In this document: piece by piece, positions 1-23,002 of the stretch
How positions within the stretch are numbered: the first letter of the stretch is position 1
How the letters are laid out: the number at the start of each line of letters is the position of its first letter
From: a virus
Virus record (IMG/VR): IMGVR_UViG_3300031825_000073
Coordinates: 1-23,002 of that record
Direction: 5' to 3' (one strand)
Length of the DNA: 23,002 bases
Position numbers and translations under genes: made by a program
The notes under the pieces: model-generated
What the model was told of the DNA's origin: nothing
What the model saw: only the letters and a program-made list of their open reading frames with translations
Database searches by the model: none

Positions 1-760
1 TGCTGATGATGTCCAGGTTGCCGCTAACCTCGGTCCAGGTGCCGCCCCCGGAAGCCGTCCCCAGCGTGGCACTGTCGGCGCGATTGAAGTTATCGGTGAG
101 GGTGGTTTCGTGCGGCAGTCGCCCCGGATGCCCCTTCCGCAATTCCGGAGGTACAAGGTCCCGCCACCCTTCCCCCTGGATGCGGAACTTATCGCACCAG
201 CAGTCCAGCACCCGGCGAGCGTGCCCGGACTTCCCGCCTTTGCGCCGCTCGTCCTTGACCGCTTCGCGGTAGCAGCGGTGCAGCACGTCCTTTACCTTCG
301 CAGTGTGCGCGTGCTGCCCCCACTCAAAGCGCTCCGTGCGGACGATGGAATGTCCAGGTAGGTGCAGCGATAGACGACCTCCGGTTTCGGGCATCAAGGG
401 AGAAGTCGGCGTGTCGCCGCTGGGGTCGCTGCCCTGCGTTAGCTGATCCCAGAGCAAGTCAACCAGCCAATCCCCGGAGGCTCGATAGCCGAGGAGCGCT
501 TCCCAGGCGTCCTGCATCGCCCCGGTAACGGCAATCTCCCGGCAGTCTCCGCGGCCTAACGGGGTATATTCCGAAGCCAGCGGGGACGTGGCCGCAAAGA
601 AGCCATAGGGCTTGTCTCCGTAAGCGCCCGCCAACTCCTGTGCCGGCAGCCCACGCAGATCAACCGCGGCAATGCACCCATCTGGGGCTGACCACCGCTC
701 GCCTTCCGTGTCGCTGATCCAGGCCCACGGGCCGAGGTAGTAATGATAATCGTGAAGCAT
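1..760 (-). CDS. Tail fibre-like structural protein with C-terminal jelly-roll-like start, partial
   Basis: Open reading frame from ATG at 760 that runs off the left edge with no stop (253 codons seen). GGAG lies 4 nt before the ATG, a short but usable spacing. Residues 1-215 are a mixed domain (start MLHDYHYYLGPWAW) that I do not recognise. After a Pro-rich linker, residues 222-250 show FNRADSATLG followed by TWTEVSGNLDI. In phage and secreted proteins this FNRAD...W pattern often opens a concanavalin/LamG-like beta-sandwich that binds glycans. It is separated from the upstream gene by a terminator (774-801), so it may have its own expression control. Function in host receptor binding is inferred from its position at the distal tail end of the operon and from that motif. 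Confidence 0.8.
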   Translation of the reverse strand, partial: MLHDYHYYLGPWAWISDTEGERWSAPDGCIAAVDLRGLPAQELAGAYGDKPYGFFAATSPLASEYTPLGRGDCREIAVTGAMQDAWEALLGYRASGDWLVDLLWDQLTQGSDPSGDTPTSPLMPETGGRLSLHLPGHSIVRTERFEWGQHAHTAKVKDVLHRCYREAVKDERRKGGKSGHARRVLDCWCDKFRIQGEGWRDLVPPELRKGHPGRLPHETTLTDNFNRADSATLGTASGGGTWTEVSGNLDIIS

Positions 761-773
761 TCGGCTCCAATGC

Positions 774-801
774 AAAAGGCCGCACCCCGAAGGATGCGGC
801 C
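774..801 (-). terminator. Rho-independent terminator (minus strand)
   Basis: Perfect 7-bp stem GGCCGCA/TGCGGCC (795-801 pairing with 778-784) with a 10-nt loop, followed on the minus strand by TTTT (774-777). It lies 36 nt after the stop of the fibre gene at 837 and just before the start of the next gene at 760. It would end most of the late transcript here. Confidence 0.75.
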
Positions 802-836
802 AAGAAAAGCGGTATGGGGCAGCGCGTCACTGCGGA

Positions 837-1715
837 CTACTGTTCAAGCCCGTAACTTTGCAGGTCATCTACCAGGGCATTGACGAAGCCCGCGAGGTCT
901 TCCGTAAAGGCTCGCAGGTTCTCATAGGCTGTCCGGAGCGCGTTGAGGTCCGCAAGCTTCGCTTCGCTATCCGCCGCGCCGGTATAGGGCGTGCTTTCCG
1001 GGTCGCTGGTGTAAGCGGAGAGGGTGCGGTCGGCAGTGGCGTACGTCTGGGTGAGCGCAGCAGCGCGGGAAGCCAGCGTCACTCCGAAGAAGCCCAACTT
1101 CCCACCGCTCCGCGAGAGCTGCACCCCGCCGCTGCCTTTGCCGCGGAAGGTGGCGTCTACATTGGTTTCCCCGCTCGCCTCTAGGATCGGCCCGGCGCCA
1201 GTTGCCCCGTTGGAAAGGGTCAGCTCATTGACGGCGGAAGCCGTGGCGGTCAGGTTCAGCAGCTCGTTTCCGCCGCTGTCCAGAATGGACGTGACCACGC
1301 GCGGGGAGACAAGCCGCGCGGTGCTGCCGCTGCTCTCGCTGCCGCGCCGGAGAATGTCCGTGCCGTCGCCGTACACCTCGCCGGAGTAGCCCTGCGTGAT
1401 CGCAATACCGGAGCCGCTCGCGGTCTTTACCGTCAGCGTGTAGCTGCCGGTCGTGGCGTTGACGACTAACCAGCGCTTCTTCCAGGTCGGGACGATGATG
1501 TTGATGGAGCCGGTAAGCGTGCCGTCAAAGTACAGGATCGGATTGCGCGCCTGCGTGCTGGTGAGGGTCACGTCAGTGGAGCCGCTCACGTCGAGCGATA
1601 GCATCCCGGCGAAGGCTGCTTCTGCGCCGTTCGCCAGCGCGTTGACATCCGCTGCCGGGAGTTGATCCGTGCCGCCGTAGCTGTTCGTTAGGCCAAGGGC
1701 CGCAGTAGTGCTCAT
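837..1715 (-). CDS. Tail fibre / minor virion structural protein
   Basis: 292 aa, ATG at 1715 with GGGAG 5 nt upstream, directly abutting the stop of the 65-aa gene. The N-terminus (STTAALGLTNSYGGTDQLPAADVNALANG) has the Thr/Asn-rich 'ADVNALAN' look common in phage fibre attachment regions. Residues 40-215 are Ser/Thr/Gly-rich, as in beta-structured fibre shafts. The last 60 residues (LADLNALRTAYENLRAFTEDLAGFVNALVDDL region) form an amphipathic helical segment, likely a trimeric coiled coil. No enzymatic motif is seen. Position after tape measure and hub-like genes supports a receptor-binding or fibre role; the exact family is not recognised. Confidence 0.75.
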   Translation of the reverse strand: MSTTAALGLTNSYGGTDQLPAADVNALANGAEAAFAGMLSLDVSGSTDVTLTSTQARNPILYFDGTLTGSINIIVPTWKKRWLVVNATTGSYTLTVKTASGSGIAITQGYSGEVYGDGTDILRRGSESSGSTARLVSPRVVTSILDSGGNELLNLTATASAVNELTLSNGATGAGPILEASGETNVDATFRGKGSGGVQLSRSGGKLGFFGVTLASRAAALTQTYATADRTLSAYTSDPESTPYTGAADSEAKLADLNALRTAYENLRAFTEDLAGFVNALVDDLQSYGLEQ

Positions 1716-1913
1716 CTAGTCTCCCGACAGAATGAAGTCGTCAAGTGGCGTGATGTCCAGCCGCCCGTACGGCGTCCAGGTGCCCGACACGTCCGCACCT
1801 GCCCCCACGGGCGTGCTACTCTGCGGACCGCTGGCAGCGGTGGCGCTGCTTCCCTGCACGGCGGCACGGCGTTGGCTCTCGCGCAGCAGGCGGTTGGTTT
1901 CGGTGGGTTTCAT
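1716..1913 (-). CDS. Small hypothetical structural protein
   Basis: 65 aa, ATG at 1913. Its TAG stop (1716-1718) is immediately followed by the ATG of the next fibre gene, so the two are probably translationally coupled. The N-terminal third is charged and helical (ETNRLLRESQRRA). The middle is Ser/Ala/Gly-rich, and the end has GTWTPYGRLDITPLDDF. No clear Shine-Dalgarno precedes it. It is the first gene after the tRNA-like pair. Small proteins between hub and fibre genes are often connectors or fibre chaperones, but nothing in this sequence proves that. Confidence 0.65.
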   Translation of the reverse strand: MKPTETNRLLRESQRRAAVQGSSATAASGPQSSTPVGAGADVSGTWTPYGRLDITPLDDFILSGD

Positions 1914-1931
1914 TTAGTGGGCCAGAAAGTG

Positions 1932-1964
1932 AAGAAGGCCACCCGGTTAAGGGTGACCTTTCTT
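1932..1964. terminator. Hairpin with T-rich flanks, possible bidirectional terminator
   Basis: Stem AAGG(c)CACCC/GGGTG(a)CCTT around a GGTTAA loop, extended by AAG/CTT with a one-base bulge. The plus-side exit is TTTCTTG and the minus-side exit is TTCTTC. It lies between the 65-aa gene and the tRNA-like element at 1968. In the minus direction it could trim or terminate the tRNA-like transcript; in the plus direction it would stop antisense transcription. Confidence 0.45.
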
Positions 1965-2226: not shown

Positions 2227-4335
2227 CTACACCCGCCGCAGCGTCCCCGTTGTCGTAAGCGTGGCGAGGTCGCTGTTGGCGGCGTAGTTGATTTCTTGCG
2301 TCAGCAGCACGAACTCCGTACCGTCTACGATCCCCTGACCCTGGAACCCATAGAGCGCCCAACGCTCCCGCCGGGAGTGCCGGGGGTCAACCGGGATGCT
2401 GAAGTCCGCTTCATCCTTGAGCGCAAAGCCCTCTTGTGCGAGCGCCTGCGCGTGCCCGAGGAGATAGCCTGCGGATGCCGTGCCGTTGAGTTCCAACAGC
2501 CGCGTTTCCCGCCAACCGGAGAAGCGCTCGTTAGTGGCGTCCGTCTCTGCGGTGCTGTCCACAGCTCCGGAGAACACCATATTCCCGCTCTCGTCTTTGC
2601 AGTAGACGAGAACCGAGGTGCAGCTTTCCTTGTAGTCAGTGCGTGTCGACAGGCTCTTGGACGTGTTTCGCTCGTCCTCGCCGGTGCTGGGAGCTGTCGA
2701 CCGCAATACGTGGTCGACAGTCGCGGACACGTAGTTCAGCGGTACCGGCGTGATGACTCCGGCATCTGTGATGGCGAGTTCTAAAAACCGCTCCTTCTGA
2801 ATGCGCCGCAGCGTCTCCCACGGCATCTCCTGCGCCGTCGTCAGTTCACACGGCTCCTCGGCCATCCCTAAAGGAATGAGGCCCGTGGCTGCTGCCGAGT
2901 GCCCGCTGAAGTACGATGAGTTAAGCCCCTGCCACGTCAGGATCTCCACCGCCGCCGCGTTGGGCGTTTGGCCGCACAGCGCCACCTGCCGGAACGGGCT
3001 CCACGGGTCGCGCTTGAACCGCGCGGAGATGTTGAGCAGGTTCCAGGTGACGATTACCTGCGATAGCTCCTCGCTCCAACTGGTCGTTTGGTCCGCAACG
3101 TAGAAGTAATACGGCCCGTACGTCTCGTCGGTCCCATCCGAGAGATGATAGCCGACGTAGATCCGCACCTTGCGCCAACGGTAATACTTCTTCGTGTTGT
3201 TGTCATACGCATTGGCCGCAAAGCTAATCGTTGCGGACGTGCCATCCAACGCAAGCGGCTTGACGATCCGCACTGATAGCAGGTCGCCAGGGAGGGCTTC
3301 AGGCGGATCCGTTCCCCCTGCCTGCACAGTCGGCGCGATGCGGTAATTGACCGCATAGAGTACCGGCGTGAAGTACCAGGAGAACGCGGCGCCTGGCGTA
3401 GCGGTCGGTGGCGTCAGGGTCGCGCGGTACTGCGCGAGCCGTGCAGTCGGCGTGCCGAGGTCGGTAAACGCCACGGTGCCGCCGTTCTCGTCGTACCGGC
3501 TGCCGGTGAACGTGACAGTGGCGGCAACTCTCGAGCGCTCGAGCGGCTTCGCCTGGCTGTCCCACGTTCCCGCGAATGCCTTGAGTTGGTGAATGCCGAA
3601 CGTGCAGGAGCCACCGCGCCCCCGCAACACGATCTTGCCGCCGGGAATGGTCGCGGCCCCGTCGCTGGGAGTGTAGCGGGTATACGTGCGGCCAAGGTCC
3701 GTAGAGACACATACCTGACTCCGGAGCACCCGCACGTAGACCCACACCTCCGCGGCGTCCGTCCACCCTTCTCCTTTCGGGGGGCTTGGGATATCTGCCA
3801 CCACGCGCCACGCGCCGGAGACGAACCGCATCAGGTAGCTGCCGTCCTTCGTGAACTGCACGCCGTACGAGGCGCCGAGTTCAATGCGGATGAACGGAGG
3901 GTAGGTGGTGAAGTCCCAATCGCTCGGAGTGTCGGGCAGCACCAGCGAGAACGCGTACTGTGCGTCAGTCGGCGCGGAGTAGGTGGATGTGGCGCTCCAA
4001 CTGGTGACGGTGGACGAGGAGTCGTACTGCGTCACGCGGTAGCCGCGAGCGCCACCGGCAGAGAACCGCTCCTCTTCCCAGCTTCCGCCAGTACGCGTGA
4101 AGTGCGACAGGCGTGTATCCTGCGTAACGAGGAACGGCCGGCAGCAAACGCCGATCCCTTCAACCTGCTCCAGATAGGCGATACCGCTGGAGTTGACGCT
4201 TGGAAGCCCACTGCCGAACGAGGACGCCAGCACATCGTACCACGCCAGCCCCGGATCAATTAGAACAGGATCTCCGTGCGCGGGCTTGTACACTTCTACC
4301 AGCGCGTACGGGTAGTCTCTTGTCGGGGTAGGCAT
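2227..4335 (-). CDS. Tail hub / tip-associated structural protein (Tal-like position)
   Basis: 702 aa; ATG at 4335 sits directly next to the TAA of the upstream beta-propeller gene. Roughly residues 1-260 are beta-rich, with a laminin/concanavalin-like composition and an Asp-box-like STDLGRTY. A beta domain follows to about 420. The C-terminal 280 residues (WSPFRQVALCG..., MPWETLRRIQKERFLELAITDAGVITPVPLN) resemble the hub regions of siphophage tail-associated proteins in overall pattern. Two genes separate it from the G/GT pair on the same strand (tape measure and propeller), so it occupies the usual place for the tail hub or baseplate spike carrier. No lysozyme or peptidase motif is visible. 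The family assignment is inference. Confidence 0.7.
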   Translation of the reverse strand: MPTPTRDYPYALVEVYKPAHGDPVLIDPGLAWYDVLASSFGSGLPSVNSSGIAYLEQVEGIGVCCRPFLVTQDTRLSHFTRTGGSWEEERFSAGGARGYRVTQYDSSSTVTSWSATSTYSAPTDAQYAFSLVLPDTPSDWDFTTYPPFIRIELGASYGVQFTKDGSYLMRFVSGAWRVVADIPSPPKGEGWTDAAEVWVYVRVLRSQVCVSTDLGRTYTRYTPSDGAATIPGGKIVLRGRGGSCTFGIHQLKAFAGTWDSQAKPLERSRVAATVTFTGSRYDENGGTVAFTDLGTPTARLAQYRATLTPPTATPGAAFSWYFTPVLYAVNYRIAPTVQAGGTDPPEALPGDLLSVRIVKPLALDGTSATISFAANAYDNNTKKYYRWRKVRIYVGYHLSDGTDETYGPYYFYVADQTTSWSEELSQVIVTWNLLNISARFKRDPWSPFRQVALCGQTPNAAAVEILTWQGLNSSYFSGHSAAATGLIPLGMAEEPCELTTAQEMPWETLRRIQKERFLELAITDAGVITPVPLNYVSATVDHVLRSTAPSTGEDERNTSKSLSTRTDYKESCTSVLVYCKDESGNMVFSGAVDSTAETDATNERFSGWRETRLLELNGTASAGYLLGHAQALAQEGFALKDEADFSIPVDPRHSRRERWALYGFQGQGIVDGTEFVLLTQEINYAANSDLATLTTTGTLRRV

Positions 4336-5325
4336 TTAGGTCTGCGGCTCCGAGCGCCATTTTCCGGAAGCGGTAACAACGGCGGAACGGATGATCTGCA
4401 CAATATTACTGGTGGTAACCATTGGGACATAGGCGAACGTCAAGCGTCCGTCCGCATCTGCACGCAGGCACGCGCTGTTTACGAAGTTCTGGCCGTAGTC
4501 CATAAAGGACAGGTCTTGCATTGCGAAGTGCCCACCGCCTGGCCCCGGAATGAGCGCAGGGTTGATGGTGTAGCTCGATGGATACCAGGCAGTGGGCTTC
4601 CCATCCGAGTCCAGCGGCGAACTTGCCAGGAACCAGGAGTGGGAGACGTTGGAGCTCAACGGGACGAAGGTAATCGCCGGAACCGTCTGCATCGCCAAGC
4701 AGAGGAGTTGCTGCTTCGGGCACCAACACAGCGTCGGGTTGCGCCAATCGGACGCCACCACCGTTACCGGTGCGGTCCAAGTCGCGCCGCCGTCCTCGCT
4801 CTGCTGATAGTAGACGGCCCCCGCGTCACTCCAGGCGAACCCCCATTGACCGCTCGGCCCTACCCGCACCGATGCAGTAAGGTCACCCGCCGCCGCCACG
4901 ATCAGCACCGGCGAGGAAACGACGGTTAGCACCCCGGAGCTGTCGAGGTCCACCGTCAGCCAATACCAGTCCGCAGCGCTGGTGTCTTGCATCACCACTA
5001 CCAGGCGGTTTCGCTTGGCGTCCCAATCGCTGACGACGTTGCGATACCCGCTCGCGAGGGTGACCGGACTGCTCCAGGTGCGCCCCCGGTCGCGGCTCGT
5101 GATGAGCGAGACGGTCCCGGAGAGGTCGTAAACCAGGTCCATCAACTGATCGCCGCGGATGGACATGCTGACGCTGTTCCCGCTGGGAGTGAGCAGGGTA
5201 CCTGCCGGTAGCGGAGGGGTTACCGAGTCGGCGTAGCGATACAGGCTGATGCGCCCGCCGCCTCCGTAGGCCGATACGATCCGCCCGGTATTGGTGCGGA
5301 CGAACGACGGCCCGAAGATCGCCAT
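4336..5325 (-). CDS. Asp-box (BNR) beta-propeller tail protein, sialidase-like fold
   Basis: 329 aa; its ATG overlaps the stop of the tape measure gene (TAATG), so it is probably coupled. Two clear Asp-box motifs of the form S-x-D-x-G-x-T-W are present: SRDRGRTW near residue 86 and SEDGGATW near residue 172. Each is followed by PVTL/PVTV strands, as in sialidase-type six-bladed propellers. An arginine triad and nucleophile Tyr of a true sialidase cannot be confirmed by eye, so glycan binding without hydrolysis is equally possible. It sits where siphophages normally encode the distal tail (Dit) protein, which makes it unusual. A direct role in recognising a surface polysaccharide is inferred. 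Confidence 0.75.
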   Translation of the reverse strand: MAIFGPSFVRTNTGRIVSAYGGGGRISLYRYADSVTPPLPAGTLLTPSGNSVSMSIRGDQLMDLVYDLSGTVSLITSRDRGRTWSSPVTLASGYRNVVSDWDAKRNRLVVVMQDTSAADWYWLTVDLDSSGVLTVVSSPVLIVAAAGDLTASVRVGPSGQWGFAWSDAGAVYYQQSEDGGATWTAPVTVVASDWRNPTLCWCPKQQLLCLAMQTVPAITFVPLSSNVSHSWFLASSPLDSDGKPTAWYPSSYTINPALIPGPGGGHFAMQDLSFMDYGQNFVNSACLRADADGRLTFAYVPMVTTSNIVQIIRSAVVTASGKWRSEPQT

Positions 5326-7880
5326 TAGCCCGCCGCTCCGATCATCCCGCTTTCACGGCTCATCCGCTCCTGGAATTGCTGGAACGCTTTCCAGAGCTTC
5401 TCCGGGCTCATCTGCCCGTCCCCGAGGAACAACTGCATCACCATCGGTTTAGGCGCGAGTGCCGCCGCCTGGCGTGCCGCTTGCTGGCTTTCGGTGACGG
5501 CGCGAGAGGTCACGGGGTTGCGCTCTGCCATCTCTTGCAATTGGTTAAACTGCCCGAGCAACTGCGCGGACCCACGGCGCCCCAAGCGCTGGAACCCACC
5601 GAGGTTCTCCACCACCTTCCCGAACAACCCCTGCACGTCCGTCTGCCGGTCCATCCGCTCCGTGTAAGACTCGCCCTGAACCCGGCGGCTCTTTTCGTAG
5701 ATTTCCGCCGTCAGCAGTCGGTTCATCTCCGCGGCCTTCTGCTGCCGGGATAGGAAGGGATTGTTCGCGAGCTTGGCCTCTTGGAAACGATCCGTCGCAA
5801 CCTGGCTGTTGATCCGGTCCGCATTCATCGCTTTGAACGCACTCACCACCTGTTCGCTGATCTGCTTCAGGCTGGATGCGCGCTCCTGCAATTGGCGCTT
5901 GTTGGCTTCCGCGGCTTTCTTCGCCTCGTCCGCGGCTTTCTTCTCGTTGCGGGTCGCTTCCTCTTGCGCCAACCGTTGGGCCTGGGAGAGAGTGCGTTCC
6001 AGGCCGGCGTGTTCCGAGCGCAATTCCTGAACCCGGAGCGCCGCATCCCACGAAGTTTTCGTGAGAGGGAGAAGCTGCTTTATCTCTGCAGCAATCTGTT
6101 CCTCGCGCGGGATGATCGCATACGTCATTTCGACGTACTTGCCCGCTGCCTCTTGCCCTTCTACTGCCAATGACGCCCGATCCGCCGCTTGCGCCATTTG
6201 CTCGCGGAAGGCCATATCCTGAAACTTGCGGACGTTATCCGTCTGCTGCTTCCCGGCTTCCGCGGCCTTCTTCTGGTTGTCCGCAACCTCTTTTACGGCC
6301 TCGCGTTGGAGCTTGTTGGCCTGCTCGATAAGGTTCGCTTCGTCCCGCTTCAGCGCCCAATACTGCTTGTTCGCTTCGGCGCTTTCCCGGATCTTGGGCG
6401 CGAGCTTCGCGGCATCGTCCGCAAACTCCTTCGCGCGCGCGGTCAGCAGCGGAACGCCCGTCGCGGCCTCGCGCTGCGCCTGCATCTGCTCCGGCCCACG
6501 CGCCGCCGCGTTGGTGCTCTGCTGCATCCGGAACGCGAATTCTGCGTCGCCTGCCTGCGAACGGAGCTTTAACTCCTTCGGGTCGATGACTGCGTTCCCG
6601 GTGCCGCCTATGGCATCGTAAGCAGGAGCGCCCCCCGCCGCCATAGCCGCCGCAGGAGTGCCCGAACTGCCACCGCCCGGGGCGCCCTTCTTGCCGCGGA
6701 AGAACCGAGCGGCGCCTTCCGCAAGCTCTACGGAACCAGCCGGCAGGGCAGGTGCGGCCCACTTAAGAATTCCCTGGAGCTCTTTCGGGAGAGCCGAGTA
6801 CACGCCAGCGCCCGCGCCCACCGCCGCCGCGCCGCCCAGCACGATCCCCCCAGCACCAAGCCCTACGCCTGCGCCCGCAAGTCCTGCGCCACCTGTCGCC
6901 GCCGCGCCGCCGCCGCCGAACATCCCTGCGATCTTGGCGACCATCCCTGCACCGGAGAGCAGCGGACCAAGAGACGCCACAAACAGCGCCCCGGCGCCTG
7001 CCGCCTTCTTCATCGGGTCCGGAAGGGCGTTAAAGGTATGCAGCAGGTCGCGTGCCACCCCCAGCGCATCCTTAACTGCCGGGATCAACTCTTTCCCGAA
7101 TGCCGCTGCCGTGTCGGATAGTTCCGCCTTCATCGTCCGCATTGTGTTTGCGAGGCTATCTGAGGTGCGGTTGTAATCCCCCTGCGCGGTCTTCGTCTCG
7201 CGGAGAATGATGTTGTATGCGGCCTGCGCTTTTGCGGACGGATCCAGCGCTTCCCCTTTGACGGAGATGAGCCCCATCTTCAGGGCTTCCGCCTGGATCT
7301 TCGCTTCCGACAAGTTGACGCCGAACCGCCGCAGCGGCTCTGACTCCCCTACCAGGCCGGCGCGCAAGGCGACCATCGCCTCTTCCGGGCGCACGTCCTT
7401 AAAGCTCGCCAGGTCGCCCGCAAGCTGAACCATCGTCTGGCTCATCTTTGCGGACTGCCCCTGCCCGATCTCCATAGCGGTGAAGAGGGCGCCGAAGTCG
7501 CCCACCGCAGAGAGGGCTTCCGCGCGGGACTGCCCGAACCCCGTTGCAGCCGTTCGGGTCCAAGCGTCAATCGCCTTGGCGTTGCTGCCGAAAACCACGT
7601 TGACGCGGCTCAACGCTTCCTCGGTGGAAGACGCCATCATTACCGCCGCGCTCGCGCTGGCGACCATTGGCGCTGTAACCCCAATGGAGAGGTTACGCCC
7701 AATGGCCTGAAGCTTGCTGCCGTCAATACTGCCGATCTTCTTGCCGAACGTCTCAACGGACGCGCCGGCCTTTGTGGCTTCTCCCTCTACGGTCTTGAGC
7801 GCCGCGGCATCTTCCTTCAGCCCCCGGCGAAAGTCCGCATCGTCTATCTCGACGACGGCTTTCAGGCGTGCGATTTCCAT
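5325..7880 (-). CDS. Tail tape measure protein
   Basis: 851 aa, the longest gene here. It sets tail length and is ejected with DNA. Residues 1-60 are helical and charged. Residues 60-270 carry the typical phage tape-measure core (VGDFGALFTAM, LAGDLASF, PEEAMVALRAGLVGESEPLRRFGVN). Residues 292-361 form a long Gly/Ala-rich hydrophobic stretch, likely membrane-inserting. Residues 450-760 are Ala/Gln/Lys/Glu-rich coiled coil. It lies after the G/GT chaperones, as in most siphophages. At about 0.15 nm per residue a tail near 125 nm would follow, as a rough estimate. The start at 7880 has no good ribosome-binding site, but the N-terminus fits the family. Confidence 0.93.
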   Translation of the reverse strand: MEIARLKAVVEIDDADFRRGLKEDAAALKTVEGEATKAGASVETFGKKIGSIDGSKLQAIGRNLSIGVTAPMVASASAAVMMASSTEEALSRVNVVFGSNAKAIDAWTRTAATGFGQSRAEALSAVGDFGALFTAMEIGQGQSAKMSQTMVQLAGDLASFKDVRPEEAMVALRAGLVGESEPLRRFGVNLSEAKIQAEALKMGLISVKGEALDPSAKAQAAYNIILRETKTAQGDYNRTSDSLANTMRTMKAELSDTAAAFGKELIPAVKDALGVARDLLHTFNALPDPMKKAAGAGALFVASLGPLLSGAGMVAKIAGMFGGGGAAATGGAGLAGAGVGLGAGGIVLGGAAAVGAGAGVYSALPKELQGILKWAAPALPAGSVELAEGAARFFRGKKGAPGGGSSGTPAAAMAAGGAPAYDAIGGTGNAVIDPKELKLRSQAGDAEFAFRMQQSTNAAARGPEQMQAQREAATGVPLLTARAKEFADDAAKLAPKIRESAEANKQYWALKRDEANLIEQANKLQREAVKEVADNQKKAAEAGKQQTDNVRKFQDMAFREQMAQAADRASLAVEGQEAAGKYVEMTYAIIPREEQIAAEIKQLLPLTKTSWDAALRVQELRSEHAGLERTLSQAQRLAQEEATRNEKKAADEAKKAAEANKRQLQERASSLKQISEQVVSAFKAMNADRINSQVATDRFQEAKLANNPFLSRQQKAAEMNRLLTAEIYEKSRRVQGESYTERMDRQTDVQGLFGKVVENLGGFQRLGRRGSAQLLGQFNQLQEMAERNPVTSRAVTESQQAARQAAALAPKPMVMQLFLGDGQMSPEKLWKAFQQFQERMSRESGMIGAAG

Positions 7881-8274: not shown

Positions 8275-8796
8275 TCGGCCGGTGGCGCTTCGAGATTTCC
8301 GCCTCTGCCCACATCTCCGACGCCTCCAACTCCAGCGCCAACCGCTGCCAGCCCACTGGTTGAGCGGCCAACTCCCACGGAGCCACCTTCAGATACCGGG
8401 CCGCACGCACCAACGCGTAGCCCGGTAATTCCTCGCCTCTACGTCCGCCGCTTACGAGGTAGGCGCGATGGCTGCGGACGCTCGCCGGTTTGGGAGTTGA
8501 TCCTCTTGGATCGCTCGCCAAATGGAGATGATGGCGAATTCCGGAAGGGATTGGACTGCTTCCAGCGATACCGGAACCGGGGCGCCGTTGTCGGTAAACT
8601 CCCAGTTCGTCAGGTTCTCCGCAAGCATCTCGTCGCTGCTCGTGTCGGCCAAGCCGGCCCGATAAGCAGATGACGTACACCGCGTGCGGTAAGTGATCTG
8701 GACAGCGCCCACCCCGATATCAACCGGGATAGTGCGCGTCTCTTCAAGGATCGCTGATAGTTCCAATGCCAACCTCCGGGGCTTGCGGCCCATCAT
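8267..8796 (-). CDS. Tail assembly chaperone gpGT-like (-1 frameshift fusion)
   Basis: Zero frame from 8796 to the slippery site, then -1 frame to TAA at 8267-8269. The first 103 residues are shared with the G product (ending QLPN), followed by 73 residues of -1 frame (PASVRSHRAYLVSGG...). Coordinates fit exactly: 530 nt is 177 codons minus one base. The T part (ALVRAARYLKVAPWELAAQPVGWQRLALELEA) is helical and typical of T domains, which recruit tail tube subunits to the tape measure. The predicted product is 176 aa. Confidence 0.82.
8452..8796 (-). CDS. Tail assembly chaperone gpG-like (zero-frame product)
   Basis: 114 aa from ATG at 8796 (a second ATG follows at 8793). It acts on the tape measure before tail tube polymerisation; it is not a virion part in known systems. 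Position just upstream of the tape measure gene, small acidic N-terminal domain and the overlapping -1 frame extension all fit the lambda G/GT arrangement. There is no strong Shine-Dalgarno. A terminator-like hairpin (8810-8838) lies directly upstream, so its expression may be lowered relative to the tail tube gene. Confidence 0.85.
   Translation of the reverse strand: MMGRKPRRLALELSAILEETRTIPVDIGVGAVQITYRTRCTSSAYRAGLADTSSDEMLAENLTNWEFTDNGAPVPVSLEAVQSLPEFAIISIWRAIQEDQLPNRRASAAIAPTS
8488..8494 (-). promoter_or_regulatory. -1 programmed ribosomal frameshift site CCCAAAC
   Basis: Minus strand reads C-CCA-AAC in the zero frame (codons CTC CCA AAC CGG), a canonical X-XXY-YYZ heptamer. Tandem slippage gives CCC AAA in the -1 frame and continues as CCG GCG AGC. 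It lies 11 codons before the zero-frame stop and in the expected place between gpG and gpT parts. Confidence 0.85.
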
Positions 8797-13135: not shown

Positions 13136-13990
13136 TTAGGCCGGCTTGTTAGCCGTCAGAACTGCCAGGTAGCTCGGACGAACTACCCGTGCGCCGTAGA
13201 GGTGCAGGCCCTTTACCGCGTCCGCAAAGCGAAGTTGCGGACGGTAAGCTTCGGTCTTCACCAGCTGATCTGCGAAGGTGATAGCCTTCGGATGACCGGC
13301 CATAATGCGGTACTTCGTGGCCGTGGTGTTCGGCACGTTGTTGGACTTCATAATGCTGAAGCCCGCCGCTTCGCCGATCTGCCCCTTGAGCAGCGTGGGT
13401 TTGTTAGGGTCCGTTCCGAAGGACACGAAACGTTCATCCTTCAGCAGCAGGCCATGAACCCACGGAGGAACGATGGCGTACCGATTGTCTTGCGGGACGT
13501 CGTTCTCATCCAGCAGAACGCCGAGGTCCACCAGGTAGTCATACACGGCGCCGATGGTGCCGAGGTCCGTCTTGGGACTCGCAGTGGAGCCGATCAGGTT
13601 TGCGGCGTCGGTGTACAGGGCCGCGATGAACTGATCCGTGGTGTTCGCGAGCGCGTATCCCGCTTCACCCATCGCGGCATCCATCACCGCGATATTCCCC
13701 TGCGCCTTGTCCACGTCGTCAATCGCGAAGTTGTACATCTTCGACTCGGTGATTGAAAGCGTGGTCGCCGCGTCCTGCAGCTCTTCCGGGGCGCTGTGGT
13801 CGGTCCCCTTCGTGTAAGTGGATACCGTCACCCGGCCAATGCCGTTAATGCGGACGGTATCGCCCTGTGCGCTGATTTCGCCTTCATAGTCGCGGTTGAC
13901 GACCATCGGGCCACCGTACACCAGGTTCTTGTTCGTGTTCGCCAGCAGGCGAGCAGACCAGATGGACGGGATGAAGTTGTTGAGACTCAT
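13136..13990 (-). CDS. Major capsid protein (HK97 fold)
   Basis: 284 aa; ATG at 13990 with GGAG 8 nt upstream. The start SLNNFIPSIWSARLLANTNKNLVYGGPMVVNRDYEGEISAQGDTVRINGIGRVTVSTYTKGTD is typical of P22-coat-like/HK97-fold capsids. It is followed by LQDAATTLSITESKMYNFAIDDVDKAQGNIAVMDAAM (spine region) and FVSFGTDPNKPTLLKGQIGEAAGFSIMKSNNVPN. No N-terminal delta domain is present, matching a separate scaffold gene upstream. Confidence 0.93.
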   Translation of the reverse strand: MSLNNFIPSIWSARLLANTNKNLVYGGPMVVNRDYEGEISAQGDTVRINGIGRVTVSTYTKGTDHSAPEELQDAATTLSITESKMYNFAIDDVDKAQGNIAVMDAAMGEAGYALANTTDQFIAALYTDAANLIGSTASPKTDLGTIGAVYDYLVDLGVLLDENDVPQDNRYAIVPPWVHGLLLKDERFVSFGTDPNKPTLLKGQIGEAAGFSIMKSNNVPNTTATKYRIMAGHPKAITFADQLVKTEAYRPQLRFADAVKGLHLYGARVVRPSYLAVLTANKPA

Positions 13991-14007: not shown

Positions 14008-14619
14008 CTAGCCGAGGGCTACACCTTTGAATTCACCGGCTTCCCAACGGCGGTTGAACTCCGCGGGATTGGTCTTCGCGAGTTCAGCCATTGCCTCTTT
14101 CGAGAGCGTTCCGCCCCGCTGCTTCTGCGGATTGCCGGGATTGCTGCCCCCGCTACCGCCGCCGCCGACCAAGTACGGCTTGTCTTTCGCGAGCTGTTCG
14201 AGCAGTGCGGGGACGTTCTCCGGGTCACCGTCCGCATTGAGCTTCACTGCGTCTTTGATGAGCAGGTAGGCCGTATCCGGATCCACGATCCCCGCCGTTG
14301 CAGCTGCGGCCTTCACTTCCGCTCTCACCACCCGGGCGTTAGCGGTTGCGGCCTTCTCCTCTGCAGCCTGGAGTTGTGCAGCCGTCGCTTGGCCCGCCGT
14401 CTCCAGGTCCTTGAGCTTCTTCTCGGCTTCCTTGGCCCGGGTGCGGTAGTTGGCGCTCTCCCCGCGCAGGGATTGCACGTAATCCGCACTGAACACCTGC
14501 GGCTCTCCCCCGCCTGGAGGGGTTGCCGGGGGTGTAACCGGGGCGACTGGAGGGGCGCCTACCGGTGGCTCGTCAGGGGAAAAGAAACAGCCGAACAAAC
14601 GATCACTGAACCTGAACAT
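14008..14619 (-). CDS. Scaffold protein
   Basis: 203 aa; GGGAG about 11 nt before ATG at 14619. Pro-rich N-terminus (PPVGAPPVAPVTPPATPPGGG), a central coiled coil (YRTRAKEAEKKLKDLETAGQATAAQLQAAEEKAATANARVVRAE), then a Gly/Asn linker and a basic/acidic C-terminal helix (SKEAMAELAKTNPAEFNRRWEAGEFKGV). This is the usual layout of capsid scaffolds, placed right before the capsid gene. It directs assembly of the shell and leaves before DNA packaging. Confidence 0.87.
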   Translation of the reverse strand: MFRFSDRLFGCFFSPDEPPVGAPPVAPVTPPATPPGGGEPQVFSADYVQSLRGESANYRTRAKEAEKKLKDLETAGQATAAQLQAAEEKAATANARVVRAEVKAAAATAGIVDPDTAYLLIKDAVKLNADGDPENVPALLEQLAKDKPYLVGGGGSGGSNPGNPQKQRGGTLSKEAMAELAKTNPAEFNRRWEAGEFKGVALG

Positions 14620-14688: not shown

Positions 14689-15786
14689 CTAGGAATTGGT
14701 GGGAGCCGGCGCCGTAGGGTCGCGCCCCTCGCTCTTGCGTCTCTCCGCATTACGCAGCGCCCCGGGTAGGCTCGCCTCGGTGCGCGTTGGCCCCCAGCGC
14801 GGATCATCCTTGTAGTGGACGAAATCCCCAAACTGCACCTCGCCCGCCTTCCACGCTGCCAGGCGCTTCTCTCCGAGTATCCAGCGTTGGCGGTTCTCCG
14901 GTTGGCGCTTGAACCAATCCTCGCCCGCTTCGATCTTGGGGCGGCTGTCGGGGATGGATGGGTCGTCCAGGATCTCGGAAAGCGGCTTCGGGCGTGAAAT
15001 GATGGTGCAGCGGCAGTTAACGTGTGTGCCCTGGATTACATTCGTGGGCATCACCTTCCCGTTCATCGCCAGGCAGGCCGCACAGGTCCGCTGCCAGCTT
15101 CCCAGGTTCGCCAGCCAGACCCACTCTTCCACCGCCTCGCCGTTCGCTTCGTAACTCCGCAGCGTGGCCTGCCGGTAAGCTCGCAGTGTCTCGGTGCGGC
15201 TGACGGTCAACGCCTGCGCGAACCCGCCGTCGAACTCGCTCTTAAGCGCCTGTGCGATCTTGCGCGGGTTCTGCCCGAGCGCTACCCCATTGAGTAGGCC
15301 CGTTTCGACCTTCCGCACGCCGGCAGGAACGATCTTGATTAGGTGGTCCTTGAGCGGCGTGCCGTCAGAGAGGAAGCCCACCAGATCTTCAAACGCGCCC
15401 CGCGGCAGCCGGTTGAAGTTCACCGAGACGCCTGCGGGAACGTCGCCTAATGCCGCCTGGAAGAGTGCCGGCGCGTGCTGTGACGCGAGCGCCACCGCCG
15501 CTGCCTGCTCTCGCTTCACGGTCTCGCTGGCGTAGCTCACGAACTCCAACAGCGCGGACTGCGCCTGCTCTTTGAGCTTCTGGAGTCGTTCTGCCTGATA
15601 GAGCCAGCCAAGAGGCACGTCGCGCCCCTCGTTTCGCTGTTGCTCGATCCCTTTCAGGATCGGTTGCAGCAGACGATCTATCTCACTCCAGGCCCGCCCG
15701 TACGCTTCCGCCATCCGCGAGGCTGCGGACTCTTCCCGCGCGAGCAGTGCCGCCCGATAGAGGTCCGCAGCTTCGTAGAGGTTCAT
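14689..15786 (-). CDS. Minor head protein (Mu gpF / SPP1 gp7-like)
   Basis: 365 aa; ATG at 15786 overlaps the portal stop (ATGA). The long helical N-terminal half (ADLYRAALLAREESAASRMAEAYGRAW) and the family core TVSRTETLRAYRQATLRSYEANG identify it. A Cys-His set (TCAACLAMNGKV and THVNCRCT, the CxxC...HxNCRC arrangement) typical of Mu F-like domains follows. It is packaged with the portal and may affect DNA exit. A charged tail extends to TAPAPTNS. Confidence 0.88.
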   Translation of the reverse strand: MNLYEAADLYRAALLAREESAASRMAEAYGRAWSEIDRLLQPILKGIEQQRNEGRDVPLGWLYQAERLQKLKEQAQSALLEFVSYASETVKREQAAAVALASQHAPALFQAALGDVPAGVSVNFNRLPRGAFEDLVGFLSDGTPLKDHLIKIVPAGVRKVETGLLNGVALGQNPRKIAQALKSEFDGGFAQALTVSRTETLRAYRQATLRSYEANGEAVEEWVWLANLGSWQRTCAACLAMNGKVMPTNVIQGTHVNCRCTIISRPKPLSEILDDPSIPDSRPKIEAGEDWFKRQPENRQRWILGEKRLAAWKAGEVQFGDFVHYKDDPRWGPTRTEASLPGALRNAERRKSEGRDPTAPAPTNS

Positions 15787-17177: not shown

Positions 17178-18493
17178 TTGTAGATGGATGGCCCAGTAGA
17201 GAAATCGTCAATACCGAGGGCAGGAGCGACGTACCGCAAAGCGTCTAATCGGTGATAGGTCCGCTTGTTGACGATCTCGCCTTCCACCGGTTGGCCGGAT
17301 GGATCCAACTTCCACCGGTAGGAGCCGAGTTCGTCACGCAGCCCGCGCATACTTTCGAACAGGAAGAGGCGCTTCGTCTTAAACAGCGCGTACACGCGGT
17401 CAATCCCGCCCTGCACGTCGGACACGTACGGCTGAATGATCGGCACGCCAGATGCGGACCAATCGAGGCGCTGTTGCACTTCAGAAGGGGCGCCGCCGTA
17501 CCACCCAATGACATTCTCATTGGCGCCGGCTGAAAGCGCGTTCGAAGCGTGGCCTTCGGTGCTGTTCCCGCCACCAAGAGACTCCCGGTAAGCTATCCAG
17601 CGCCCGCGGGCCTGATCTTCCGCAATCCACACCAGGGCAGTATTCGTGGCGCCGAAGTCGAGGCCCACATACCGCGGCCACTCGCGCGGGATGTCGAAAT
17701 CCGCGATTACGTGGCCTTCGTGGAGAACATCATCGTAGCAGTCGTAAATCATCCCCGCGGGCTTGGCGAATTGCCCGTCGTACATCATCTTGAAGCGCCA
17801 GGCCGGCATTGACGCTTTGCGGTCCCGGTACTCCCGCTTGCTGAAGCCGGGGTTTCCGGTGCTGCTGAACTGCACCACCGCGATATCGGGGTCGCCTTTT
17901 ACCCAGCGGTCGTAAATCTCGCTCTTGACCCAGCCGAGGTTGTAAAGTGTGGTTGTCCCCAGCACACGCCCGCGGGAGAGGGAAAGGCGCCGGAGCACCG
18001 CTTCCCAGGTCTCAACCGTGTACTCGTCCTGTCCGCACTCGTCTAACCAGGCGGCTTTAGCCGTGGCGCTTTCGAGGCCACCCTTCGCGACTGCGGACCG
18101 GAGGATGATGCGCCCCCACATCGGATCATCCGGCGTTTTCGCCAGGAACTTCCCGGTTTCGGGGTCGCGGAGTTCGATTACGCGGGCGCTCTTGTGGTAC
18201 CGGCCAATGCCCAGGGTGTGGACGAACACTGCCAGCATTTCCGGCAGCATCTTGAGCAAGAAGAGGTCGTAACTACTCGATACCGCTAGGTAGTCGTTCG
18301 CTTCTCCTTTGCGGGCTGTGCGTTGGATCTCACGCCACAGCCACCACGGCCCCCAAGAGGTCTTGCCGCCCTGCGTGCCTGCCAGCACGAACACAAACCG
18401 CTGTTCAGCGTCCCACGCTTCTAACTGGCCGGAGTGTTGGGATAGGCAAAGTTGGCCGTTCTCAATCCGCCACAGGCTCTTCTTCGGACTCAT
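17174..18493 (-). CDS. terL: Terminase large subunit
   Basis: 439 aa from ATG at 18493 (a TTG at 18523 in frame is possible but less likely). ATPase: Walker A GTQGGKTS near residues 39-46, Walker B AAWLDE near 147-152, coupling motif TTLYN near 181-185. Nuclease: GLDFG with Asp279, and HRLDALRY with Asp417 near the end. It cuts and packages phage DNA into the portal. It overlaps terS by 32 nt and portal by 4 nt. Confidence 0.95.
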   Translation of the reverse strand: MSPKKSLWRIENGQLCLSQHSGQLEAWDAEQRFVFVLAGTQGGKTSWGPWWLWREIQRTARKGEANDYLAVSSSYDLFLLKMLPEMLAVFVHTLGIGRYHKSARVIELRDPETGKFLAKTPDDPMWGRIILRSAVAKGGLESATAKAAWLDECGQDEYTVETWEAVLRRLSLSRGRVLGTTTLYNLGWVKSEIYDRWVKGDPDIAVVQFSSTGNPGFSKREYRDRKASMPAWRFKMMYDGQFAKPAGMIYDCYDDVLHEGHVIADFDIPREWPRYVGLDFGATNTALVWIAEDQARGRWIAYRESLGGGNSTEGHASNALSAGANENVIGWYGGAPSEVQQRLDWSASGVPIIQPYVSDVQGGIDRVYALFKTKRLFLFESMRGLRDELGSYRWKLDPSGQPVEGEIVNKRTYHRLDALRYVAPALGIDDFSTGPSIYK

Positions 18494-19016
18494 CGTCTTC
18501 GTCGTCCGGAGCCGGGCGCTCAATGATTACTTCGCGGATGGTGAGCGGCCCGCCGCCCGGGGCGCTGTGTTCGATGCGCTCCGAGAAAATGCCGTGCGCC
18601 TTCCCGAGATGCACCAAAGCAGTTTGCGGATCGTGGAACTCCACGGTCAGGTTGCCGTTGCGGTCGAAGCTCGTCTTCTTTACCAGGTGCATCAGCCCGG
18701 CTTCGCGCAACCCCTTCAGGTCCACCGTGCCTTCATCGCCGATGAAGTCCGCATACTCGCCGCGAGCGTGGTCACTCAATCGGTCCAGCACTTCGAACTT
18801 GGTGAGCCCGCGTTCGTCCAAGCCTTCTTCGATAGCCTGCTTCACCAGCGGGTGACGCTTCACGCGCCCGCCCGTCTTGTTGATGTGGTTCTCGGAGTAG
18901 CCGGCAGCCCTAGCGGCCTTCGCCGCGTTGAACTTCGCCTCTCCCAAGTAGGCGTCCACAAACTTCCGCTGTTGCGCCATCAGTTGGGAGTACGCGCTTT
19001 TCGGTTCTTCGCTCAT
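18462..19016 (-). CDS. terS: Terminase small subunit
   Basis: 184 aa; ATG at 19016. The N-terminal DNA-binding domain LMAQQRKFVDAYLGEAKFNAAKAARAAGYSENHINKTGGRVKRHPLVKQAIEEG is the Terminase_2 pattern (qqrkFvdayl...naakAarrAGYs). Central helices and an acidic C-terminus (PDDEDDESEEEPVAD) follow; that tail commonly contacts TerL. It should recognise a packaging site, and the palindrome/pentamer cluster at 19136-19226 is the best candidate. Confidence 0.93.
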   Translation of the reverse strand: MSEEPKSAYSQLMAQQRKFVDAYLGEAKFNAAKAARAAGYSENHINKTGGRVKRHPLVKQAIEEGLDERGLTKFEVLDRLSDHARGEYADFIGDEGTVDLKGLREAGLMHLVKKTSFDRNGNLTVEFHDPQTALVHLGKAHGIFSERIEHSAPGGGPLTIREVIIERPAPDDEDDESEEEPVAD

Positions 19017-19140: not shown

Positions 19141-19168
19141 ACCATTTTCGTGACCTCACGAAAATGGT
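19141..19168. repeat. 28-bp palindrome, element 1 (terS-proximal)
   Basis: Perfect inverted repeat with 13-bp arms (ACCATTTTCGTGA and its complement) and a 2-nt centre CC. It is flanked on both sides by CGCTA (19136-19140 and 19169-19173). The gene-free stretch 19123-19227 holds it and its partner. Candidate terminase binding/packaging site or RNA hairpin. Confidence 0.8.
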
Positions 19169-19193
19169 CGCTAGGCACGCTATCAACTTGCGG

Positions 19194-19221
19194 ACCATTT
19201 TGCCGAGGTCAGCAAAATGGT
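19194..19221. repeat. 28-bp palindrome, element 2, covarying with element 1
   Basis: Same outer arms ACCATTTT/AAAATGGT as element 1. Inner pairs CG/CG are swapped to GC/GC so pairing is kept, one mismatch occurs, and the centre is GG. It matches the reverse complement of element 1 at 23 of 28 positions. It is followed by CGCTA (19222-19226) and starts 7 nt beyond the 3' end of tRNA-Leu in the minus direction. Confidence 0.8.
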
Positions 19222-19227
19222 CGCTAT

Positions 19228-19306
19228 GAGCCGGGAGAGACTCGAACTCTCACGCCGTAGCAGCGAGGCTTAAACTCGCCGGGTCTGCCAATTTCCCCAC
19301 CGGCTC
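19228..19306 (-). tRNA. tRNA-Leu(UAA)
   Basis: Canonical cloverleaf on the minus strand. Acceptor GAGCCGG/CCGGCTC, D-arm with GG..CC and TTGGCAGA loop, anticodon stem GCGAG/CTCGC with 7-nt loop TTTAAGC (anticodon TAA), variable region of about 11 nt, and T-arm GAGAG-TTCGAGT-CTCTC. It reads UUA, a codon that is rare in this GC-rich DNA. It starts 3 nt after the lysin stop codon region, so it is probably co-transcribed. Confidence 0.88.
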
Positions 19307-19309
19307 CGT

Positions 19310-19795
19310 TCAGCTAATCTCCACGAAATCCAGCCCCGCCCGCTCCCGCGTGTGCCAACACACTGCGTTCCGGTAATTGCCTTCGATGCACGCCAGCGAG
19401 CCATCGGGCCGCACCGTGTGTACCAAGAATGTGTGAATGTGCGTACCGCCGCCCGTGCGCCCGTCCTGGTCGCCGTGCCCACCTTTGCGGACCAAGCCGA
19501 TACAGCCGTCTACCGGCGCTTTCAGCAGGCGCCCGTTCCGCTTGGCCCAGGCGTAGAGGCTCGAACACGAGGCGTTGAGCGGAACGGCCGGCGTGATGCC
19601 GAGTTCCTTCCCCGCGAGGCTCACCACCCCTGTCACAAAGCACGCGCACCACGGCTGGTTGTCGAGGTAGGCATAGCCCTTCGCTACCAGGCGTTGCCAG
19701 AAGCGCACTGCGGCCCCGTCGTTGCGCCCGGTGGCCTCGCGTTCGCCGACGTGGCGCTTGGCGATCTGCAGGGCGCGCTGTTGGAGCGGGGTCAC
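19310..19795 (-). CDS. Endolysin, CHAP-like cysteine peptidase/amidase
   Basis: 161 aa from GTG at 19795, which shares a base with the TAG of the upstream gene (TAGTG). Motifs: PWCACFV with nucleophile Cys50, THIHTFLV (His119 or His121), and CIEGN (Glu138/Asn140). The order matches CHAP/NlpC-P60-type peptidoglycan hydrolases, with no separate cell-wall-binding domain. The sequence opens with QQRALQIAKRHVGEREATGRNDG, the usual start of such lysins. It would degrade peptidoglycan at the end of infection, together with the membrane proteins just upstream. Confidence 0.83.
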   Translation of the reverse strand: MTPLQQRALQIAKRHVGEREATGRNDGAAVRFWQRLVAKGYAYLDNQPWCACFVTGVVSLAGKELGITPAVPLNASCSSLYAWAKRNGRLLKAPVDGCIGLVRKGGHGDQDGRTGGGTHIHTFLVHTVRPDGSLACIEGNYRNAVCWHTRERAGLDFVEIS

Positions 19796-20045: not shown

Positions 20046-20360
20046 TTACTCCAGAATGTCCGCACGCTCCACGCGGCGCTTCAAGTCGTCAAACTCTGTC
20101 CGGAGCGAGGTCACTTCAACCTCTAGCTTGCCGGCGCGTACTTCGCAGTCGCGGTGGTGCTCCTGGCACTGGTCGACCTTGGCCGTCAGTTCCTCGTTCT
20201 GCTTCCAGAGCTTCCGCGTCATCCCCGCGAGTTGCGAGGAGTCCATCTCGTCGCGCTTGCGGAATCGGTCGACCAACTTCCCGCCGATGACCCCTGCAGC
20301 CGTCCCTAGTGTGCCCACCACGCCTAGCATCAGCTCGTTACTCACCGGTTGATCGGCCAT
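20046..20360 (-). CDS. TM plus coiled-coil protein, putative holin/spanin-like
   Basis: 104 aa from ATG at 20360 with GGAGG 8 nt upstream (an earlier in-frame start exists but lies before that site). One hydrophobic segment near residues 9-31 (ELMLGVVGTLGTAAGVIGGKLV) is followed by a long charged coiled coil (residues 38-100). This layout fits a membrane-anchored lysis protein such as an Rz-like spanin or a holin with a coiled-coil tail. Its neighbours, a small gene and a CHAP-like lysin, support a lysis cassette. Confidence 0.72.
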   Translation of the reverse strand: MADQPVSNELMLGVVGTLGTAAGVIGGKLVDRFRKRDEMDSSQLAGMTRKLWKQNEELTAKVDQCQEHHRDCEVRAGKLEVEVTSLRTEFDDLKRRVERADILE

Positions 20361-21049: not shown

Positions 21050-21068
21050 GTAACCGGCCGATTATTTT

Positions 21069-21296
21069 TCAGCCAGGCGTTTTCACAGCCCGCAACGCCT
21101 TGAGATGGACCGCACAAAGGCTGAAGAGATCCAGTGGTTCTTGGTCACTACTCATCCCCACTTCCGCCACTGCGGGCACGTCATCTTTGCATTCATTGCA
21201 AAGCTGGATCTCTCCGGGATGGTGCCACGGTGCGGACGGAGTGAACCGCAAGCCGTCTGCGCTGGTCCAGGCAGTCATGTCAACCGTTTCTATCAC
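21069..21296 (-). CDS. Cys-rich small protein, possible zinc-binding
   Basis: 75 aa from GTG at 21296, whose GTGA overlaps the upstream stop and has AAGGGG-type Shine-Dalgarno sequence; ATG at 21278 has none. CNEC (28-36 region) and a later CAVH (LFSLCAVHLKALRA) form a CxxC...CxxH set typical of a small zinc finger. This is the last gene of the accessory cluster before the AT-rich promoter. DNA/RNA or protein binding is possible. Confidence 0.65.
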   Translation of the reverse strand: MIETVDMTAWTSADGLRFTPSAPWHHPGEIQLCNECKDDVPAVAEVGMSSDQEPLDLFSLCAVHLKALRAVKTPG

Positions 21297-21918: not shown

Positions 21919-22168
21919 TGAGCGCGGCCTTCTCTGCGGCTTCCCACTCGCGGACGATCTGCACAGTCTTGTTGCCGTAGTAGAATGCCACAATGGACAG
22001 CAGGAACAACGCGGAAATCGCCAGCGTCAGCAGTTGCGCCCCCAGCCATAAACGTTGGCGCCACCACTCAATCGCAAGCGGGCATAGCAGCAGCGCGGTA
22101 ACCAGCCCAACGCCTGCCTCTGTCATACGCCGCCGCGCCCAAGTCCTGAACCCTTCCCGGTCATACAT
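21908..22168 (-). CDS. Small membrane protein, two TM helices
   Basis: 86 aa; ATG shares a base with the TAA of the helix-turn-helix gene (TAATG). Two hydrophobic stretches, GLVTALLLCPLAIEWW (about 21-36) and GAQLLTLAISALFLLSIVAFYYG (about 43-65), with an Arg-rich N-terminus. It could be a holin- or exclusion-type protein, but it is far from the lysin. It overlaps the next ATG by 11 nt. Confidence 0.68.
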   Translation of the reverse strand: MYDREGFRTWARRRMTEAGVGLVTALLLCPLAIEWWRQRLWLGAQLLTLAISALFLLSIVAFYYGNKTVQIVREWEAAEKAALNGR

Positions 22169-22656
22169 TACGCCATCCCCCCTTCCCGTAGTCGCGCCCG
22201 GTTCTCCGCAGCGGTGAGCTGCGGCCCCGCGCTTCGTCCCGTCAAGTCGTCGACCGTCACCAGCGGCCCCGCGTGCGCCGCCCCGATGATCGCAAACGTC
22301 ACCTGCACCTCGTCTACCCACTCCCGCCACGTCACGCCGATCAGCGCCCGGCCTGGCTCCGTGCGAGTGCGCCGCATCGCGTCAAGCAGGAACCGCGCTT
22401 CCTCTTCCGGCGTGTCGAGGTCCGCACGCTCCAGCGCTGCCCGACGCTGTTCCGCTACGGTGGCGAAGAACACGGACTGACACGCGCGGAGCTTCTTGCC
22501 GGCGGTGCACCGCGCCACCGCCACGGCGCCTTTCGTGATGCCCAGTGCGGACGCCAGGGCGCCATTCGTCTCGACGCCTTCCGCCCGCAGGCGGGTTAGC
22601 GCTTCCTCTTGCGGGGAGAGGCGTGCGAGGCTGATTAGCGTTTCGAGGTCGTTCAT
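22168..22656 (-). CDS. Putative helix-turn-helix regulator
   Basis: 162 aa from ATG at 22656 (TAGGAG about 10 nt upstream; an earlier in-frame start is less likely). Residues 13-55 (LSPQEEALTRLRAEGVETNGALASALGITKGAVAVARCTAGKKL) are a sigma-region-4/LuxR-like or MarR-like recognition pattern: two helices, a turn, then a basic helix. The rest is helical with no ligand motif. It may regulate the late promoter at 21020-21049. Confidence 0.65.
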   Translation of the reverse strand: MNDLETLISLARLSPQEEALTRLRAEGVETNGALASALGITKGAVAVARCTAGKKLRACQSVFFATVAEQRRAALERADLDTPEEEARFLLDAMRRTRTEPGRALIGVTWREWVDEVQVTFAIIGAAHAGPLVTVDDLTGRSAGPQLTAAENRARLREGGMA

Positions 22657-22669
22657 CGCGTGCGGTCTC

Positions 22670-22864
22670 CTACGGCTGCACTTCCGCAACCGCCGTATAC
22701 CTGCCCATAAAATCGCCGTCTTCATAGACCTGCGAAATCTCGGTGACGAAAACCGTCCGGTCCTTCGGGGTTATCCCGTCCGCTTCCAGCTTGCGTATAA
22801 TGAAACTCCGCAACGCCTCTTCAACGTCAGGCCCCGACAACTCCACAGCAATGTGATGCTTCAT
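22670..22864 (-). CDS. Small hypothetical protein
   Basis: 64 aa from ATG at 22864 (GAGG 4-5 nt upstream; a GTG at 22891 adds 9 residues but has no Shine-Dalgarno). Predicted beta-alpha fold: HHIAVELSG, DVEEALRSFIIRKLEADG, RTVFVTEISQVY, GRYTAVAEV. No motif is recognised. It lies 13 nt before the helix-turn-helix gene. Confidence 0.6.
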   Translation of the reverse strand: MKHHIAVELSGPDVEEALRSFIIRKLEADGITPKDRTVFVTEISQVYEDGDFMGRYTAVAEVQP

Positions 22865-22903
22865 CCCCCTCGCCACTCTCCCCCGGCGCACCGGGCACGG
22901 CCG

Positions 22904-23002
22904 CTAGGCGGCTACCTTTGATGCGCGGTCTAGCTCGTCCGCAAGATGCTCCCATACTTGCATCCGCTCTCGGCAGATGACCGCCGCGGACTCCAAAGCG
23001 CC
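22904..23002 (-). CDS. Unknown protein, C-terminal end only (partial)
   Basis: The window cuts the start. 32 residues are visible, then TAG (22904-22906): GALESAAVICRERMQVWEHL... ending in DELDRASKVAA, helical and acidic/basic mixed. No function can be proposed. It shows that the same-strand gene cluster continues to the right. Confidence 0.6.
   Translation of the reverse strand, partial: GALESAAVICRERMQVWEHLADELDRASKVAA

Follow-up and report, generated by a model that had tools for sequence, protein, structure and literature searches.

Why should a viral genome carry one seven-letter word every five hundred bases or so, in genes and between them, on both strands? The question is raised by the contig analysed here, a stretch of 23,002 bases with 63% G+C (IMG/VR record IMGVR_UViG_3300031825_000073, positions 1 to 23,002), referred to below as the window. 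The word is GTCCGCA, or TGCGGAC when read on the opposite strand. We consider it very probable that the word is a signal at the DNA level and that it is under selection; what reads it is a harder question, to which our preferred answer is more tentative.

Abundance and distribution of the word

The window contains 48 exact copies, 23 reading TGCGGAC and 25 reading GTCCGCA on the plus strand, which corresponds to 20.9 copies per 10 kb (2.1 per kb, or 2087 per Mb). A preliminary description of this DNA had counted 44 by eye (23 GTCCGCA and 21 TGCGGAC), slightly too few, and had put the number expected from base composition at four to five; the computed value is 4.9. Markov models of order 1, 2 and 3 predict 5.5, 5.9 and 6.8 copies, respectively. 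The tenfold excess first described thus holds relative to composition, and even the third-order model, at about 7-fold, falls far short of the observed number. The corresponding z value of 15.7 is the highest of all 7-mers in the window by a wide margin. For comparison, the word spelled backwards, which served as a control, has 10 copies. Words that differ from the motif by a single substitution are not comparably frequent (109 in sum, 94 expected), and some of them are depleted: GTCCGCC occurs once (8.9 expected) and the third-base variants twice (9.9 expected). No longer consensus emerged from the 20-base flanks of the copies, in agreement with the earlier reading, and no repeat family accounts for them.

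As had also been described, the copies are found on both strands, in all reading frames and in coding as well as non-coding DNA: 41 are located in the listed coding sequence of 18.6 kb and seven in the 4.7 kb outside. Their spacing fits a Poisson process and their density is uniform over the contig. There is no strand skew, either in absolute terms (23 vs 25) or relative to gene sense (22 vs 19). Close neighbours tend to alternate in orientation, 13 of the 14 pairs less than 200 bp apart and all seven pairs under 70 bp being oppositely oriented (p = 0.001 by label shuffling, for a pattern noticed post hoc). The copies are listed below; all are exact matches to TGCGGAC, and minus strand means that the plus strand reads GTCCGCA.

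337-343, plus strand, copy
831-837, plus strand, copy
948-954, minus strand, copy
1791-1797, minus strand, copy, inverted pair with 1822
1822-1828, plus strand, copy, inverted pair with 1791
3091-3097, minus strand, copy
3232-3238, plus strand, copy
4450-4456, minus strand, copy
4969-4975, minus strand, copy
5295-5301, plus strand, copy
5817-5823, minus strand, copy
6227-6233, plus strand, copy, inverted pair with 6279
6279-6285, minus strand, copy, inverted pair with 6227
6417-6423, minus strand, copy
7135-7141, minus strand, copy
7233-7239, plus strand, copy
7449-7455, plus strand, copy
7833-7839, minus strand, copy
8473-8479, plus strand, copy
9821-9827, minus strand, copy
9980-9986, plus strand, copy
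10197-10203, plus strand, copy
10389-10395, minus strand, copy, inverted pair with 10421
10421-10427, plus strand, copy, inverted pair with 10389
10913-10919, plus strand, copy
11225-11231, plus strand, copy, inverted pair with 11281
11281-11287, minus strand, copy, inverted pair with 11225
11500-11506, minus strand, copy
11762-11768, minus strand, copy
12497-12503, minus strand, copy
12910-12916, minus strand, copy
13220-13226, minus strand, copy in major capsid gene, inverted pair with 13236; synonymous alternatives in relatives
13236-13242, plus strand, copy in major capsid gene, inverted pair with 13220; synonymous alternatives in relatives
13849-13855, plus strand, copy in major capsid gene; synonymous alternatives in relatives
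14230-14236, minus strand, copy
15724-15730, plus strand, copy, inverted pair with 15763
15763-15769, minus strand, copy in MuF-like gene, inverted pair with 15724; GGCGGAC in relative L312
17453-17459, plus strand, copy in terminase gene
18031-18037, minus strand, copy in terminase gene; TGCGGGC in L312
18092-18098, plus strand, copy in terminase gene; synonymous alternatives in relatives
18747-18753, minus strand, copy
19189-19195, plus strand, non-coding copy between two palindromes
19486-19492, plus strand, copy
20058-20064, minus strand, copy
21231-21237, plus strand, copy
22420-22426, minus strand, copy
22546-22552, plus strand, copy
22937-22943, minus strand, copy

Silent spelling and comparison with relatives

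The preliminary description had argued that amino-acid use cannot explain the copies, and this proved correct. In 300 shuffles that kept both the proteins and their codon use, coding copies numbered 5.7 ± 2.3 (maximum, 14), as compared to the 41 observed. At the places where the amino acids permit the motif, 38 copies are realised and 5.25 are expected; for permutations of the same seven letters, the ratio of observed to expected has a median of 0.95 and reaches 2.3 at most. T-GCG-GAC is spelled at 18 of the 36 possible sites (5% expected), G-TCC-GCA at 10 of 43 (2.5% expected) and GTC-CGC-A at five of eight. Of the 23 codons preceding GCG-GAC, 18 end in T and none in G, with T making up 12% of wobbles overall; the codon before CGC-A is GTC in all five cases, and GCA comes after 10 of the 14 instances of G-TCC. 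The dipeptides themselves are not far from their numbers in shuffled proteins, Ala-Asp being near expectation (42 vs 39) and Ser-Ala about two standard deviations high (57 vs 45). A single silent change would abolish each of the 38 copies in the tested gene set. The places open to silent spelling are near saturation, and about half of the sites for the commonest spelling are used. The motif is thus not explained by the use of amino acids or codons or by local composition, which supports a signal at the DNA level. Given the z value, the shuffles, the lack of a repeat family and the comparison that follows, we attach practically no credence to an origin in chance, composition, repeats or amino-acid use.

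Relatives were collected by their capsid (16 loci, L001-L016, 32-62% protein identity) and by their terminase (13 loci, L312-L324, 48-68% protein identity). None of these 29 related loci is enriched in the motif. L312, which ranks nearest in both terminase and tetranucleotide signature (r = 0.70), has nine copies in its record of 36.8 kb. In aligned genes, Ala-Asp sites are spelled T-GCG-GAC at 15 of 30 places in the window and at none of 88 in the relatives (0 of 22 in L312). Among 35 aligned places at which a relative has identical amino acids, which are not independent because several relatives share single sites, the motif is present in one, and 6.3 would be expected for ordinary words. 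The enrichment in related phages that the preliminary description had proposed to look for is therefore absent, though at 32-68% protein identity these relatives may infect other hosts.

At motif sites the relatives depart from the word by one to three changes, which vary in type and position (TGCGGGC, GGCGGAC, CTCCGCC and GTTCGGA are examples) and are not explained by any single mutation bias. This bears on the idea that the host has a sequence-directed bias of repair or mutation, in the style of very-short-patch repair, which makes GTCCGCA from near-matches, and that the word itself has no function. The likeness of the two strands and the depletion of some one-step neighbours noted above would fit such an activity, but it should favour one type of change, whereas wobble choice is shifted at four separate positions; we regard the idea as improbable. 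Taken together, the enrichment, the absence from 88 Ala-Asp sites and the single match among 35 places argue that the motif was written into the lineage by many independent, varied and mostly synonymous substitutions. On this sequence evidence, it appears to have been gained in the window's own lineage and retained as a DNA-level signal. There is good support for a dispersed, non-palindromic signal of this kind that selection or a biased drive maintains.

What might read the word

Several familiar systems can be set aside. KOPS, the FtsK-orienting sequences, are short, frequent and asymmetric like the word in the window, but they are strongly skewed to one strand; the balance of 23 to 25 therefore disfavours the KOPS-like role that had been suggested. 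HIP1 (GCGATCGC) of cyanobacteria is likewise a very frequent word, dispersed over coding and non-coding DNA. It is a palindrome, however, and GTCCGCA is not; GCGATCGC itself has no copies in the window (3.3 expected), which speaks against the proposed analogy. Restriction, also suggested at the outset, would predict avoidance of the motif rather than enrichment.

By form, the best fit is a Chi-like site, as the word is short (7 nt), asymmetric, G-rich, equally frequent in both orientations and uniformly distributed. An asymmetric word of 5-8 nt over-represented on a phage in both orientations is what marks Chi, and here it is seen at 23 and 25 copies and a 7-fold excess. The Chi of Escherichia coli (GCTGGTGG) shares the short, asymmetric form and is likewise in excess in phages that rely on the recombination of their host: it accumulates in lambdoid phages without a recombinase of their own (PMC3784561). 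In such a scheme, an end-resecting helicase-nuclease of the host (of the RecBCD, AddAB or AdnAB type), having entered the DNA from either end, would meet the word, stop degradation and load the recombinase. Words scattered on both strands would then allow the phage to survive and recombine from any break. We tentatively prefer a Chi-like role over other specific roles; that the word is read by the host in some way, of whatever kind, we consider rather probable.

A number of observations weigh against the Chi-like role. Known Chi words occur in the window at numbers not notably above expectation (GCTGGTGG, 0 vs 1.6 expected; GAAGCGG, 17 vs 11.0; GCGCGTG, 19 vs 12.7; AGCGG, 128 vs 100.5), although Chi words vary between clades and a match to a known one is not strictly defining. 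The alternating orientation of near neighbours is no prediction of Chi. A recombinase or nuclease inhibitor would be expected among the genes for replication and recombination, which lie off the contig. The density of 2.1 per kb and the observed/expected ratio of 7 are far above the values of 0.2 per kb and about 3 for E. coli Chi in phages (PMC3784561), and it is unclear what a phage would gain from a 48th site. Finally, none of 1,467 bacterial and archaeal genomes is enriched in the word, the highest density being about 4.4 per 10 kb.

The genomes were drawn from Chloroflexota, Pseudomonadota, Eremiobacterota, Actinomycetota, Planctomycetota, Acidobacteriota, Verrucomicrobiota, Gemmatimonadota and one Bacillota phylum, with 25 mixed. 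Sampling was thin (81-398 genomes per large phylum, 16 for Gemmatimonadota, with Armatimonadota and most Deinococcota left out), so a host confined to a single family may have escaped. Stretches of 20 kb from Deinococcus radiodurans MP1 and from Thermus pTT27 are not enriched in the motif either, nor was it found in the examined portion of the text of a genome paper on Fimbriimonas (Armatimonadota). The claim of a host-adapted DNA-level signal thus stands as regards the signal; that it came from the host is plausible, but the genomes searched lend this no support. Among the highest ratios noticed, TGCGGAC is about three times as frequent as the reversed control word in G1301, from the Verrucomicrobiota sample, and in G013, a member of the Oscillatoriales.

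Searches among viruses were similarly negative. The 559 loci collected around motif triples or as relatives (the 29 related ones and about 530 others) show no dispersed enrichment. Scans of IMG/VR and GTDB genomes for three copies within 30 bp (60 hits in one IMG/VR scan) returned mostly tandem or coding repeats among the matches listed, none dispersed as in the window; a window-like contig yields only about 0.05 hits per scan, so rare kin may escape. The tetranucleotide signature of the window points to L312 only. Named phage and plasmid homologues, at most 56% identical, indicate no consistent host. A k-mer search of the literature for the motif gave primer-type hits among the matches listed.

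A different host-read role is that of an uptake-type sequence: a naturally competent host would prefer DNA containing GTCCGCA, and the prophage would have acquired the word by transformation-driven gene conversion. A word so dispersed and so strongly in excess, found on either strand and in genes as well as between them and carried by silent changes, agrees with this. Uptake sequences are expected to leave decayed copies, however, and single-mismatch variants are barely in excess. The window word also consists of a 7-bp core without flank consensus, where a core of 9-12 bp, in many cases with conserved flanks, is typical; the known uptake signal sequences (USS) and DNA uptake sequences (DUS) AAGTGCGGT, ACAAGCGGT and GCCGTCTGAA have no copies in the window, and the sampled genomes are as unsupportive here as they are for Chi. 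Phages of Pasteurellaceae accumulate the USS, which is dispersed on both strands and belongs to the host, and other phages do not (PMC6776037), a precedent for enrichment in a phage that tracks its host. Yet 2087 copies per Mb is almost three times the saturation density of the Hin-USS, about 750 per Mb (PMC6776037). We judge an uptake role unlikely.

No more likely, in our estimate, is a reader encoded by the phage itself, which would tie the word to the phage: a primase or helicase loader, a nucleoid or packaging protein, or a repressor with stoperator-like sites. The lack of enrichment among the cellular genomes would then be expected, and the alternation of near neighbours could reflect paired binding. 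The stoperators of cluster A mycobacteriophages, about 13 bp long, are also asymmetric sites scattered over a phage genome, but they point one way and are mostly intergenic, whereas the 7-bp word points both ways, has more copies and lies in genes in 41 of 48 cases rather than at promoters. Relatives whose terminase is up to 68% identical lack the enrichment, and no candidate protein is visible in the structural half of the genome that the window represents, the early genes lying beyond it. An unrelated phage, L275, adds some support for a phage-borne reader with its iteron-like group of copies. We rejected it as a second enriched phage, as its copies form a 450-bp cluster: positions 4385-4835 of L275 hold 12 copies in both orientations, just upstream of the terminase genes. 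Judged by its sequence, this cluster resembles an iteron array or origin.

Returning to a word read by the host, it is possible, but far from assured, that a bacterial lineage uses GTCCGCA as a genome-wide mark of self, about once per 0.5 kb, and that the phage has been silently recoded to match. To our knowledge, words by which a genome marks itself, such as Chi and uptake sequences, have been described for few bacteria, nearly always from the bacterial genomes themselves. If the self-mark reading is true, the phage carries the word at about half of the commonest-spelling sites, more densely than the Chi and uptake sequences cited above. A phage in which silent changes have brought such a word near saturation would make a DNA-level signal of an uncultured lineage accessible, and the word would offer a means of linking phages to hosts. 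Because relatives encode the same residues without the word, the window is also a clean case for measuring selection on such a signal.

Gene content and other features of the window

The window carries phage structural genes on its minus strand, and a transfer RNA gene:

Minus strand, terminase small and large subunits, portal, MuF-like head protein and scaffold
Minus strand, major capsid, neck, tape measure, tail fibre and an endolysin-like gene
19227-19306, phage-borne tRNA-Leu(UAA) without an encoded CCA end

A comparison of the window with Rfam gave no match. Adjoining the tRNA-Leu(UAA) gene are two tandem near-perfect palindromes at 19141-19168 and 19194-19221 (ACCATTTTCGTGA-CC-TCACGAAAATGGT and ACCATTTTGC...GCAAAATGGT), with a single copy of the motif between them; they are possible terminators, operators or attachment-site features. 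Two other words are rarer in the window than expected, CGGCCG (26 vs 61.6) and GGATCC (10 vs 24.5), and their under-representation may reflect restriction avoidance.

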